A stretch of DNA of 48,801 bases from NCBI GenBank assembly GCA_030550515.1, contig JAUQPE010000026.1, positions 1-48,801 of the forward strand. The letters run 5' to 3'. The notes beneath the pieces were generated by a model that saw only the letters and a list, made by a program, of their open reading frames with translations, had not been told where the DNA came from and did no database searches. A program made the position numbers and the translations under genes. Shown piece by piece: positions 4,029 to 19,425 of the stretch. Source of the DNA: Thermotogota bacterium (GTDB taxonomy: Bacteria; Thermotogota; Thermotogae; Thermotogales; Thermotogaceae). How positions within the stretch are numbered: position 1 is the first letter of the stretch; each line of letters begins with the position of its first letter.

Positions 4029-5579
4029 ATGGCTGAAGAAAAGATCTTGATCAGCGAAGCTGAGGTGGAATTTAAAGAAAAAATACTCTCAAGGAGAGAG
4101 CTCGCTTGGATCGCTTTCAAGAGGAACAAGCTTGGTATGTTCGGGTTGGTGGTCCTGATCGTCCTCTACCTCATGGCGCTCTTTGCCGATTTTCTCGCGC
4201 CTCATCACCCTTACGAGCAATCGCTGAGGCACTCTTTCGCCCCGAGGACGAAGGTACACAGAGAGTACAAGGGAAAAAGGGTGAAACCCTACGTTCTTCC
4301 CATGATCAGTTTCGTCGACGAGACGACTTACGAAAGGAAGTTCTTCGAGATGATCTTCCCGAACAGACTCATCGTGGACATGTTCGGCGAGGAGCACGCG
4401 TACGAGATTGGAAAGGATGGAGTCACAGGCTTCTCTTTCGTGATCGACGAAGAGTACTATGTGGTTTTGGAGGATGGGCTGGAGTTGCAGGTGGACTCTT
4501 CCACGACCGTTTTGGATTACTTTCTCGCCGGTTACAATTTGGATGTTTTGAACAGAGGAGAAGCCGAGATATCGTCGGATTCCCCAGTGGCGAAAGACAT
4601 CTACTACGCCAAGTACGGTTTTCTGTACGATATAAACTCGCCCGAAGAGATCGATCGTGTGATCGTGAAACAACGCCTGAACGCGATCATGGTGAAGAAA
4701 GGCGAAGATCTGGAACTCGTGGTTGGAAGCGTGAAAGACTACGACTACAAGATCTATCCATTCAAGTGGTTTGTGAAGTCCTGGGGAGGAGATGAGAAGA
4801 ACCGTATAGGCTATCTCTTATGGCTCATACCTTTCCACTACCACCTGTTCGGGGTGGAGAACCACGACAACAACGAGTACGTCAGGTTCTACCTCTTGGG
4901 AGCCGATCAGTTCGGGAGGGATCTATGGAGCAGGATCGTTTTCGCATCCAGGATATCCCTCTCGATAGGCTTCATAGGTATGATCGTAACCTTCTCGTTC
5001 GCCTTGGTACTTGGAGGGATCTCCGGGTACTACGGTGGCCTGTTCGATGAGTTCCTCATGAGGGTTTCGGAAGTGATCATGTCCATACCCGGTTTTTACC
5101 TCCTCATACTCCTCAGATCCCTCCTTCCCTTGGACATACCGTCAACGAGAATCTACATCATGTTGGTGTTCATACTGTCCTTCATAGGATGGGCGGGAAG
5201 GGCACGAGTCATAAGGGGAATGGTTTTGTCGATAAAGCAAAGGGAGTTCGTCGAGGCCGCGAAAGCCCTCGGTTTTTCTGACGCACACATCCTGTTCAAA
5301 CACGTGCTGCCGAACACCGCGACGTACATCATCGTCTCGGCCACGTTGGCAATCCCAGGTTACATCCTGGGCGAGGCGGGTTTGAGCTTTCTTGGCCTTG
5401 GGATAAGGGAACCAAGTGCGAGTTGGGGTCTCATGTTGGCACAGGCCCAGAACATCACTTACATGACGAAGTACCCGTGGCTTCTCATACCTGGTGCCTT
5501 CATCTTCATCACAGCCCTCTCCTTCAACTTCGTTGGAGACGCTTTGAGGGATGCCCTGGATCCAAGGTCGCTGAGATGA
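4029..5579 (+). CDS. ABC transporter permease, DppC/OppC type, with a large periplasmic insertion
   Basis: Second membrane subunit of the importer. The C-terminal half has the whole DppC core: the LGADQFGRDLWSRIVFASRIS motif near residue 290, several membrane helices, and an EAA loop (EFVEAAKALGFSDAHILFKH). The first membrane helix is at about residues 36-60. Between it and the GADQFGRD motif lie about 220 extra residues rich in charged and aromatic positions and lacking membrane helices, so the protein is 516 residues against about 300 for ordinary DppC. The inserted part should face the periplasm. ATG with GGGAGGAAAGG upstream. The stop codon is one base from the sigma-factor start. Confidence 0.92.
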   Translation: MAEEKILISEAEVEFKEKILSRRELAWIAFKRNKLGMFGLVVLIVLYLMALFADFLAPHHPYEQSLRHSFAPRTKVHREYKGKRVKPYVLPMISFVDETTYERKFFEMIFPNRLIVDMFGEEHAYEIGKDGVTGFSFVIDEEYYVVLEDGLELQVDSSTTVLDYFLAGYNLDVLNRGEAEISSDSPVAKDIYYAKYGFLYDINSPEEIDRVIVKQRLNAIMVKKGEDLELVVGSVKDYDYKIYPFKWFVKSWGGDEKNRIGYLLWLIPFHYHLFGVENHDNNEYVRFYLLGADQFGRDLWSRIVFASRISLSIGFIGMIVTFSFALVLGGISGYYGGLFDEFLMRVSEVIMSIPGFYLLILLRSLLPLDIPSTRIYIMLVFILSFIGWAGRARVIRGMVLSIKQREFVEAAKALGFSDAHILFKHVLPNTATYIIVSATLAIPGYILGEAGLSFLGLGIREPSASWGLMLAQAQNITYMTKYPWLLIPGAFIFITALSFNFVGDALRDALDPRSLR

Positions 5580-15733: not shown

Positions 15734-15809
15734 GTGTTTTTTGAGTAATTTTTTGGCGTCCACTTAAGAACTTGTCGTTTAAATTACCCGTGAGTACCTC
15801 AAAAAACAC
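15734..15809. repeat. Widely spaced inverted repeat and direct repeat before the secretin-module cluster
   Basis: GTGTTTTTTGAG (15734-15745) is exactly inverted as CTCAAAAAACAC (15798-15809). A nine-base direct repeat GTCGTTTAA occurs at 15702-15710 and 15774-15782. The second arm ends 22 bases before the first start codon and just before the ribosome binding site GAGGAGGGG, so folding would create a 52-base loop in the leader or, as DNA, a pair of regulator sites. The roughly 400-base gap from 15434 to 15831 otherwise holds the tRNA gene and its signals. Confidence 0.6.
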
Positions 15810-15831: not shown

Positions 15832-16260
15832 ATGAAGAGGTTGTTAGTTCTGGCATTAGTCGTGGTGTTTGGAGCGCTGCTACTCGCCGGGGCCATGTTT
15901 CCCGGAAGACCGGGAGGGTTCAACGCGGTTTTGACAGGTGACGCAACGATAAGGGTCCACCAATGGCTCGACGCAACCTTCACACCTGGTGAGGCTGACA
16001 TTCTCGACTACGGTCCCCTCGCCGAGCTCGTACTCGGTTCGTTGGCTATCGATTCGAACGCTCCCGTGAACATCGCAATAAGTGCGAACTGGAACGGATT
16101 GGCAGGATGGGTCAGCGTTGGAGGTTACTACCCAGTCAGCACGTTCGGTGATGGCACGTACCCGGTCAAAGCCCTCAACCTCAACGTTAACAAGGACACT
16201 CCCGCTGCCTCCTACACAGTCAGCGTAACCATCACGATCACGCCAACGGTGGTATTCTGA
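15832..16260 (+). CDS. Small exported beta-rich protein of unknown function
   Basis: Not recognised. 142 residues: a clear signal peptide (residues 1-20, KRLLVLALVVVFGALLLAGA), then a domain with alternating hydrophobic and Thr/Ser/Val residues and no cysteine, ending YTVSVTITITPTVVF. The pattern (LAIDSNAPVNIAISANW ... LNLNVNKDTPAAS) resembles immunoglobulin-like beta sandwiches of surface or fibre proteins, though I cannot assign a family. GAGGAGGGGTTAGT precedes the ATG. First gene of a four-gene group for exported proteins; 25 bases separate it from a secretin-tail module. Confidence 0.8.
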   Translation: MKRLLVLALVVVFGALLLAGAMFPGRPGGFNAVLTGDATIRVHQWLDATFTPGEADILDYGPLAELVLGSLAIDSNAPVNIAISANWNGLAGWVSVGGYYPVSTFGDGTYPVKALNLNVNKDTPAASYTVSVTITITPTVVF

Positions 16261-16285
16261 GGAAAGAAGGCGATATAATGTCCTC

Positions 16286-16564
16286 TTGGACGTGAAGGTC
16301 ACGTCTTCCAACATCTTGAACACCAACCGGGAGCTCCCAACGACGACCACACACTCCCTAACGGGTACCCTGCGCTTGAAGTTGGGAGAAACCGTCACGG
16401 TGGGTGGCGTGGGGTTCGACACGTACAGTACGACGGTGAACAAGGTGCCGATATTGGGCGATATCCCAGTCGTGGGTTACCTGTTCAAGAAGGAGACGAT
16501 CACCAAAACCCACAAAGAGATCCTGATACTGATAAGGTGTGTCAGAGCGGGTGAAGAAGGATGA
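16286..16564 (+). CDS. Free-standing secretin C-terminal module (short gene or remnant)
   Basis: The 92 residues match the last part of a type II/IV secretin: LKLGETVTVGGV corresponds to the GETVVIGG strand, VPILGDIPVVGYLFK is the near-invariant secretin motif, and KEILILI is the closing strand. The N- and pore-forming parts are absent. The frame is open from 16229 and secretin-like residues (YNVLLDVKV) begin before the TTG I use as start, where no good ribosome binding site is seen. Its stop overlaps the next ATG (ATGA), so it is coupled to a gene that carries secretin N-domains. It may be a remnant of a broken secretin, or a split subunit; a +1 shift would join it to the gene before. Confidence 0.6.
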   Translation: MDVKVTSSNILNTNRELPTTTTHSLTGTLRLKLGETVTVGGVGFDTYSTTVNKVPILGDIPVVGYLFKKETITKTHKEILILIRCVRAGEEG

Positions 16565-17850
16565 AGCACGTTTTCCTCTTGTTCTTGGCCGCCTGCTCTG
16601 TGGTCTTCCCTCTGGACTTGGTCTTTCAGGACGTCGAGCTCAAAGAAGCTCTCGCCACACTTTCTCATGCGAGCGGGGTGCCAATCATCTTCCCACAGGA
16701 TGTCACAGGTAGGGTGAGTTTGAAGGTGTACGGCGTGAGTCTCGATACGGCGTTGAACCTCCTGCTGACCGGTACACCGTACGACTGGATCAAGGAGGAC
16801 GAACAGTGCGTAGTGGTGACGAGAGTAGGAAGTGATTCCAAACTTTGGAAGTTACACTCGATAACGCTGCAACATACCTCGGTCGAGCAGGTCTTACCGT
16901 ACCTATCGGACTACAAGGCTTACGTCACGGGAATCGGAGAGAACCAACTCGTGATCTTCTCTGGGGAGAGGATCTTCAAAGAAATCGAAGAATTAGTGAG
17001 GCAACTCGATGTCGAAAAAGCGCAGAAGTTCGTCTGGTACAGGTACACAAGGTTCACCGAGGAAGAGAAGATCGAGCTCAAAAGACTTCTACCTCTCGTT
17101 CCGACAGTCTTGAAAAACGAAATCGCTGTTGACGAAATCCTGAAAATACTCTCCAAAGAGAGAAAGGAGAGGTTCTTCACGGGAATCGCTCCGCTCCTCG
17201 AGTCGAAGGAGTCGAAAATGGAGATAACCGAGAACTCTTGGAAGTTGAATGTAGCCTTTCTCCTTCAGGGGGCGAGCTTGAGGGTGAAACTCTCCGAGGG
17301 ACCTTTCGAAGTCGAGACAGTGGTGAACGTGCCGTCCAAGAAGACAACGGCGCTGTTGTTCCAAGAGGGACTTCTGGAAATACAAGTTTTGGAGGTTGCT
17401 CGCGTGGAGTTCAAGAGGGAAGAAACGAGAGAGTTGAAGGAAAAGTTCGCGTTCGTTTGTGAAATTTCGATCGGAAAACAAGCGGTCTTGCTCGCGGGAG
17501 CTTCCACTAAGTTTCTGGAAGACATGCATTTCCACGTTTTGTTTGGCGTCTCAACAGACAAACCCGTTCTTGCCATCAAGCTGGAGGACGTGAAGACGAT
17601 AGGTGCGTCTCTTTTCTCCTACGGAGAAGCCCGGTTGATCTTTGGGGAAAGAGGCGTCGACGGTGGGTACCTTTCCATCGGCGTAGGTTTCAGGAGGGGA
17701 AGTTTTTCAATCGGAGGGGGCGTTGGGACGGATTTCAGGGGCGTGTCTCCGGAGGTCTGGCTGGGAATGGCAAACGAGCGCGTCAAGTTTTGGGTGGTGC
17801 TGTCGATGGAGAAGTTCGGCATAAACTTCGGTGTGAAGGCAGGGTGGTAG
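16561..17850 (+). CDS. Exported protein with secretin N-terminal domains (STN + N1) but no secretin pore
   Basis: Signal peptide at residues 1-18. Residues ~19-85 (LVFQDVELKEALATLSHASG ... LNLLLTGTPYDW) form a secretin/TonB short N-terminal (STN) domain; residues ~95-155 (LQHTSVEQVLPYLSDYKAYV ... FKEIEELVRQLDVEKAQ) form an N1-type secretin ring domain. After that the sequence departs from secretins: no VPILGDIP motif, and the last 80 residues alternate hydrophobic/polar with many glycines (LSIGVGFRRGSFSIGGGVGT) ending in an aromatic residue, as in outer-membrane beta-barrel strands. 429 residues. Overlaps the secretin-tail module by four bases. Confidence 0.75.
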   Translation: MKHVFLLFLAACSVVFPLDLVFQDVELKEALATLSHASGVPIIFPQDVTGRVSLKVYGVSLDTALNLLLTGTPYDWIKEDEQCVVVTRVGSDSKLWKLHSITLQHTSVEQVLPYLSDYKAYVTGIGENQLVIFSGERIFKEIEELVRQLDVEKAQKFVWYRYTRFTEEEKIELKRLLPLVPTVLKNEIAVDEILKILSKERKERFFTGIAPLLESKESKMEITENSWKLNVAFLLQGASLRVKLSEGPFEVETVVNVPSKKTTALLFQEGLLEIQVLEVARVEFKREETRELKEKFAFVCEISIGKQAVLLAGASTKFLEDMHFHVLFGVSTDKPVLAIKLEDVKTIGASLFSYGEARLIFGERGVDGGYLSIGVGFRRGSFSIGGGVGTDFRGVSPEVWLGMANERVKFWVVLSMEKFGINFGVKAGW

Positions 17851-17851
17851 C

Positions 17852-18472
17852 ATGAAAGCGAGGGCGCTGGCCTTTTTTCTCTTGCTCACCCTTTCGTGCG
17901 TTTTCGTCTTTTCGTCAGCGAAAGATGATATCTTGAGGGCCAGGGAATACGTCAAGGAGAGGTTGAAAGATCCCGAGTTGGTCTTCGACACGCAAGATCA
18001 AGCCATGGCGGCGAAGGTAAAGTGCCTGAATCCCGCAGCGATCGTGTTGTTCGATCCAGAAGAACTCTTCAACTTGATAACCACAAACTCCGTAGGAGAT
18101 TTCGAAAGTCTGGTGATGTTGCTGCTGACCGGCAGGTGCTTCTGGGACCTTGGGAAGATGAGGGTGGAGAGGGACGTTTTCAACTACACGGACAAGTGGA
18201 AAGGGATGTTTGGGATCTTGGTTTCGAGCTTTGAAGAGCTCTCGATGTGTTTCTCTCTGGAACTTGGAAACCTGAGGGTAAACAGCGTGATCCTGTACGA
18301 CTTTGTAAACGATTGGCTCGAAAACGGTGGAAACTTAAAAGAGTTGGGGAAGTATTTGTTGAACTTTCCGGTTGGAACGGGTCACACGGTTTACATGACT
18401 CCAACCGAAGGAGGGTTTTCCTTCTCGTTGGAAAAGGGATCTTCGCTCCTGAAAAACAAACCCTACCTGTAG
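17852..18472 (+). CDS. Exported protein of unknown function, last gene of the secretin-module group
   Basis: Not recognised. 206 residues with a signal peptide (residues 1-22, ALAFFLLLTLSCVFVFSSA) and a soluble, partly helical remainder with four cysteines after the signal region. It begins one base after the previous stop, so it is made together with the secretin N-domain protein. The 130 bases after it (18473-18603) are AT-rich, contain short inverted repeats around AAAATTTTCTTT and no gene. Confidence 0.75.
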   Translation: MKARALAFFLLLTLSCVFVFSSAKDDILRAREYVKERLKDPELVFDTQDQAMAAKVKCLNPAAIVLFDPEELFNLITTNSVGDFESLVMLLLTGRCFWDLGKMRVERDVFNYTDKWKGMFGILVSSFEELSMCFSLELGNLRVNSVILYDFVNDWLENGGNLKELGKYLLNFPVGTGHTVYMTPTEGGFSFSLEKGSSLLKNKPYL

Positions 18473-18603
18473 ATCTTCACCCTCACGGATTACACCACTT
18501 TTTCCCGCGTATTATAACACAAAATTTTCTTTAGAAATAAAATTTCTTTCGAGAAAATTTGCCAGGAAAGGACTGTACAATACGGATAGATGGGGTGAAA
18601 AGG

Positions 18604-19425
18604 ATGAGGACAATCGGGAGGGCGATCTTGTGGTTGTCGGTTGCGTCTCTGATTCAAGGTTCCACTTTCCCAGTTCAAAAGTTGGTACTCGGCGACGTCT
18701 CACCGTTCGCTTACAACTTTCTACGCTTCGGTGTGGCGACTCTCACGTCCCTGTTCTTGTTCGGGCCAGGAAAGTTCAAGAGAGGGTTCGTGCTGGGAAC
18801 GGTCTTGGGTGTGGCGTACGTGTTTCAGATATGGGGTCTTCAACTCACAACGGCTTCGAAGAGTGGGTTCATAGTTTCGAGTTTTGCGCTGATGGTACCC
18901 GCTGTGGCCTATCTCGTTGAGAAAGAGAGGTTGGTGCCTTCAAAATTCGTATCCTTTACTTTGGGAGGGTTAGGACTTTACCTTCTGACTGGCGGTGTGA
19001 AAGGTATATCACTGGGTGACGTCTTTCAGATGTTTTGCGCAGTTTTGTTCGCCTTTCATGTCGTTTTGATAACGAAGTTCTCGAGGGTGGAGAAGGAAAG
19101 GGACATGATGTTTTGGCAGTTCTTCACGGCGGCGGCGACGAACGCGTTGTTTGGAGCGGGAAAAAGATGGTACCTTCCGAAGGAATCCCTGATCGTAGCT
19201 TGTTACACGGGGGTATTCGCCACAACTTTTGGAATCTTCCTACAAACAAAGTACCAAAAATGTGTTGGAAACAACACCACCGCGCTCGTTTTCATGGTCC
19301 AGCCGGTGTTCTCCCTGTTGCTCTCCGCGATCGTTCTGTCGGAGAGGATGTCGCTCGCACAGTCTCTTGGTGGTATCATCCTGTTGCTGGCCTTCCTCGT
19401 TGGAACCTTTACGAGAGGTCGATGA
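18604..19425 (+). CDS. DMT/EamA-family membrane transporter
   Basis: About 274 residues with ten hydrophobic segments arranged as two EamA repeats; the second ends in the standard pattern VFMVQPVFSLLLSAIVLSERMSLAQSLGGIILLLA. The start of the first repeat (VASLIQGSTFPVQKLVLGDVSPFAYNFLRFGVA) is also typical. Drug/metabolite exporters of this family move amino acids, nucleosides or other metabolites; the substrate cannot be read from sequence. I use the ATG at 18604 behind GGGGTGA rather than an in-frame TTG at 18559. The promoter of rnpB must lie in its 3' end. Confidence 0.85.
   Translation: MRTIGRAILWLSVASLIQGSTFPVQKLVLGDVSPFAYNFLRFGVATLTSLFLFGPGKFKRGFVLGTVLGVAYVFQIWGLQLTTASKSGFIVSSFALMVPAVAYLVEKERLVPSKFVSFTLGGLGLYLLTGGVKGISLGDVFQMFCAVLFAFHVVLITKFSRVEKERDMMFWQFFTAAATNALFGAGKRWYLPKESLIVACYTGVFATTFGIFLQTKYQKCVGNNTTALVFMVQPVFSLLLSAIVLSERMSLAQSLGGIILLLAFLVGTFTRGR

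Follow-up and report, generated by a model that had tools for sequence, protein, structure and literature searches.

A probable deletion remnant of a secretin cluster in a Thermotogota genome

Genes and features of the locus

The window, that is, the whole stretch of 48,801 nucleotides analysed here, corresponds to contig C19 of a Thermotogota genome of 1.61 Mb (29 contigs, assembly 99.76% complete). The four reading frames of the original prediction were all found in it, as was the 4-base overlap between the second and the third (Table 1). They are named here after the gene order of the cluster in related genomes (A, B, C, secretin, D, E), the second one being called the tail. Upstream of gene A there is a perfect inverted repeat with an arm of 12 bp, against a maximum of 11 in 60 shuffles, that is possibly a regulatory site. 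Directly 3' of the cluster lies a gene for an EamA-type transporter (18559-19425), and a similar gene was found near a partial secretin in the related genome G005 (L209 3071-3883).

Table 1 Features of the locus in window coordinates
Feature	Position	Strand	Description
Perfect 12-bp inverted repeat	15734-15745, 15798-15809		Upstream of gene A; arms GTGTTTTTTGAG and CTCAAAAAACAC
Gene A	15832-16260	+	Exported protein of 142 aa; ORF intact; strong ribosome site (GAGGAGGGG)
Probable deletion junction	16258-16280		End of A joined to secretin codon ~285
Probable secretin pseudogene fragment (tail)	16286-16564	+	Last ~92-94 residues of a secretin
Gene D	16561-17850	+	STN/N0 and N1 domains, barrel-like C-terminus; ORF intact
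Gene E	17852-18472	+	Exported protein, truncated by TAG at conserved Trp

The 92-residue tail matches the Pfam Secretin domain (75.9 bits) at profile positions 72-164 of 169 only, bearing out the claim that this gene carries just the end of a secretin. It is 66-67% identical to residues 286-379 of the 380-residue secretin of the relative G011, and the N-terminal periplasmic ring domains present in that protein are absent from the tail polypeptide. A hydropathy scan found no hydrophobic N-terminus indicative of a signal peptide: the maximum over 12 residues was 0.48, compared with 2.8-3.3 for A, D, E and the intact relative (3.25 in the G011 secretin). Nor was a well-placed ribosome site found upstream of the in-frame starts, the first of which are TTG 16286 and GTG 16292. 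The TTG sits 15 nt after an AGAAGG, and this AGAAGG is 7 nt ahead of an ATG (16278) that is out of frame. A complete gate domain, a signal peptide and ring domains in the same polypeptide, as a functional secretin has them, are all missing. All four proteins had been described as exported, which agrees with the hydrophobic N-terminus of A, D and E but not with the tail, devoid of one and with poorly placed starts. Decay of the tail sequence itself is not visible, since its identity to the relatives is not below that among the relatives themselves. The dN/dS estimates run on the tail, A, D and E were uninformative because synonymous sites are saturated.

The 429-residue product of gene D has a Pfam STN match above the cut-off (E 5e-8), a weak Secretin_N match and no match to the Secretin domain. 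Its residues 1-165 match secretins with 99.6% probability in profile comparison and the alignment stops after N1, so that STN/N0 and N1 are there and the gate domain is not. Along residues 4-425 it is 38% identical to D of G011. The last residue is aromatic in 20 of the 23 D homologues (a Trp in the window), and a C-terminal aromatic residue is a feature of outer-membrane barrels. The AlphaFold model, obtained from an alignment of three sequences, was of poor quality (pLDDT 34). The end of the secretin match at residue 165, together with the C-terminal aromatic residue, points to D as a secretin paralogue in which the gate domain appears to have been replaced by a barrel-like domain. The domain content predicted for this gene (STN, N1, then a different C-terminus) stands, with N1 only weakly matched, but the protein is not the N-terminal half of a split secretin.

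The two flanking proteins, described as unrecognised, have homologues that occupy the same cluster in relatives. Gene A is 51% identical to the first gene of the intact cluster of G011 (G011:C1:1877513-1877950) and is also homologous to gene B of the relatives (99.9% probability); its AlphaFold model from 3-4 sequences was likewise poor (pLDDT 42). Gene E of the intact cluster shares a terminal motif with A and B; the copy in the window ends at a TAG where the three Thermotogaceae homologues keep a conserved Trp. The TxAGxY terminal strand found in six homologues was not restored in any of the three frames 3' of this stop. Extra genes of the A/B type, some of them identical or truncated, were seen near the cluster in several records (L090 6530-8644, L098 9606-14500, L091 5709-9602), which suggests local duplication and loss.

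The intact cluster in related genomes

We used D, the tail, A and E each as query against 60 relatives. The neighbourhood search among Thermotogales proposed with the original prediction did reveal a conserved cluster, with a full-length secretin upstream of D. The order is A, B, C (a WxLIP/DUF916-like protein), a secretin of ~380 aa, D with its STN, N1 and barrel-like end, and E. In G011 the genes form a single run, B being a paralogue of A and C, the secretin, D and E having 468, 380, 435 and 239 aa; a gene for a BTAD regulator lies downstream, on the opposite strand. The same genes are present in G001 and G002, interrupted by contig ends. In more distant Thermotogota families C, secretin and D follow each other in unchanged order, and so they do in two Mesoaciditoga-like records (L115, L116). 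In the window, A, secretin, D and E are still represented by homologues that follow this order; B, C, a full secretin and a full E are lacking. The comparison shows D to be a separate conserved gene downstream of the secretin and not one half of it. Actually, most secretin/D pairs of the relatives overlap by 4 bases, indicating that the overlap in the window was inherited from the intact operon.

Gene C of G011 matched DUF916 (WxLIP_PGBD) with 32.2 bits (cut-off 27.3) and its counterpart on contig C9 of the window's own genome with 34.4 bits, while that of G001 fell below the cut-off. A search with a secretin alignment collected mainly generic secretins, and a C-like neighbour was present at 2 of 80 loci, both from Thermotogota. 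In NCBIfam no named family scored above its cut-off. Direct repeats spaced 11 bp are expected for BTAD-type regulators. Such repeats (TTTAAGTGAT-like) were found 5' of the cluster in G011 and G001 (L086 about 5360-5430; L087 5050-5340, minus strand) and would be possible binding sites of the BTAD regulator; none were found upstream of A in the window. Two relatives depart from the common arrangement. In G036 (L210 5073-6232) a secretin of this kind is split into two pieces (232 + 122 aa) next to open C and D frames; decay and a sequencing error are both possible causes. In G060 (L214 3796-6775) C adjoins a D-like STN gene, and there is no secretin either between the two or at their sides.

Probable loss of the secretin gene and alternative readings

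In G011 the interval between the end of A and residue 286 of the secretin measures ~2.9 kb and contains B, C and secretin residues 1-285. D comes after a full secretin in G011, G001 and G002 and in the other families that we examined, and the tail aligns from residue 286 of the G011 protein to its end. Both observations argue that we are dealing with a second copy of the Thermotogota secretin cluster in decay, which suffered a ~2.9-kb deletion. We consider this reading very probable as a whole, including the view that the tail ORF persists just as sequence in front of D. The ancestral order would have been A-B-C-secretin-D-E, and the deletion would have joined the end of A, just past its stop, to secretin codon ~285, taking out B, C and, of the secretin itself, the signal peptide, the N0/N1 domains and the first half of the gate. 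The bases after the A stop, with their ribosome site and the ATG at 16278, may be what is left of the beginning of another gene that was lost, probably B, now joined to the secretin in a different frame. Separately, E would have been shortened at its C-terminus and the BTAD regulator gene next to the cluster would have disappeared; the genome has a single BTAD gene, on C9. With most of the secretin gene deleted, the window copy cannot make a secretin, and the intact paralogous cluster on C9 presumably supplies one instead.

One of the possibilities originally raised, that of a decaying, broken secretin operon, is the one favoured by the single intact secretin found at the homologous place in G011, G001 and G002. 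The original prediction had named an intact full-length secretin in a related genome, paired with frameshifts in the window copy, as grounds against it; the intact gene exists and the damage here is a deletion instead, which comes close to that refutation. There is no reversal of gene order either, the relatives having a complete secretin and then a separate STN/N1 gene. The overlap and the preserved tail motifs had been taken as arguments against decay. The former is ancestral, and the latter could have outlasted a recent deletion. The identity of the tail to its relatives by itself fits a recent deletion or retained constraint alike, and we favour the first since the tail has neither a signal peptide nor a good start site.

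Some observations do sit uneasily with decay by deletion: the tail frame is open, with identity to the relatives undiminished, and A and D are full-length ORFs that could still be used. The intactness of A and D is what one would expect if the locus were reduced but working, having lost its secretin and kept A and D in some role, perhaps together with the C9 secretin, and the arrangements in G060 and G036 offer parallels of C and D-like genes lacking an intact adjacent secretin. However, C, B and the end of E are gone too, and D has lost the translated upstream gene that its start overlapped, making this unlikely. The device imagined in the original prediction, in which translational coupling would yield tail and D as the two parts of an outer-membrane gate, draws on the same open frame, on the conserved motifs and on the 4-base overlap. 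We regard it as very improbable, given that the tail is not exportable as it stands, has no well-placed start and misses ~70 of the 169 positions of the secretin domain, that D is a conserved separate gene accompanying a full secretin in the relatives, the overlap being inherited, and that the end of E and the regulator were lost as well.

Two further explanations concern the junction itself. The organism might keep an intact cluster from which the assembly skipped ~2.9 kb, and contigs do end within or near the cluster in G001, G002, G021, G033 and G035, suggesting that it is hard to assemble. Against this, the junction DNA is unique in the genome, so that a misjoin driven by repeats is not supported, and the missing B, C and first part of the secretin are on no other contig of this nearly complete assembly, where the only matches to C or secretin are the C9 paralogue and a divergent secretin of 1292 aa on C14. 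The independent truncation of E and the missing BTAD gene also fit true decay, and an assembly artefact seems improbable. Finally, the tail frame is without stops and open back to 16229, overlapping the last ~30 bases of A, and a +1 frameshift at the end of A could in principle yield an exported A-tail fusion. Such a product is hardly credible: no recognised slippery site was seen by eye, the conserved C-terminal strand of A would be changed, and A of the relatives ends alike with no fusion to a secretin.

Possible role and relation to known systems

With the locus read as the remnant of a deletion, the supposed split secretin can be discarded and a single event explains the odd gene order. 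The window copy is then an ordinary relic, and the interest moves to the intact and apparently undescribed cluster, made up of a secretin with its N0/N1 partner, a DUF916-like protein, small exported proteins and a BTAD regulator, which is found in many Thermotogota and bears at most a pilQ annotation. Sec export seems likely for A, B and C, and our best guess is that the intact cluster could be a system for export or assembly of surface proteins. In it the secretin would serve as the way out through the outer membrane, with D as its partner there; A, B and E would be beta-rich subunits exported by Sec to the surface, and C would be either an Ig-like chaperone in the periplasm or an anchor to the wall. 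We propose tentatively, as something possible but rather less than probable, that Thermotogota have an undescribed export system in which a secretin and a co-translated D (N0/N1 plus barrel-like domain), aided by a DUF916-like helper, would export small beta-rich subunits, the window holding a reduced relic of which A and D may still act. Such a cluster could bear on the building of the outer sheath (toga).

The closest known counterpart is the cluster of T. neapolitana CTN_1933, probably the one in G011. The G011 cluster shares content and order with the window, at the identities given above for the tail, D and A, and differs in having A, B, C, the full secretin, D and E intact. PMC5637354 lists three genes of T. 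neapolitana, among them CTN_1933, as putative pilQ, and this was the only mention of the A-B-C-secretin-D-E cluster in the literature that we found. The TM1117/CTN_1450-type cluster, present in the window's own genome (C9:62425-67732; L104 4425-10772), is intact and only distantly similar to the window. Like the A-E cluster it has two exported proteins, a WxLIP-like C, a secretin of ~385 aa, a barrel-like downstream gene and a BTAD gene nearby, but the gene downstream of its secretin codes for 372 aa and has no STN match.

As for PilQ, GspD and SctC, the secretins of the intact relatives match the Secretin and STN domains and resemble PilQ best, but score far below the cut-offs of these families (126 bits for PilQ, where 284 are required). 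The machinery genes of type II and type IV systems (ATPase, platform, pseudopilin) were not apparent in the cluster gene maps, read by eye. DUF916 is a domain of the WxL-interacting proteins of Firmicutes (PMC10599100), and like in the WxL/WxLIP clusters of these bacteria, a C protein with WxLIP_PGBD adjoins two small exported proteins. The Thermotogota clusters differ in that C has no DUF3324 match after DUF916 (G011, G001 and C9), nor any match to WxL, and in that they include a secretin with an outer-membrane-type partner.
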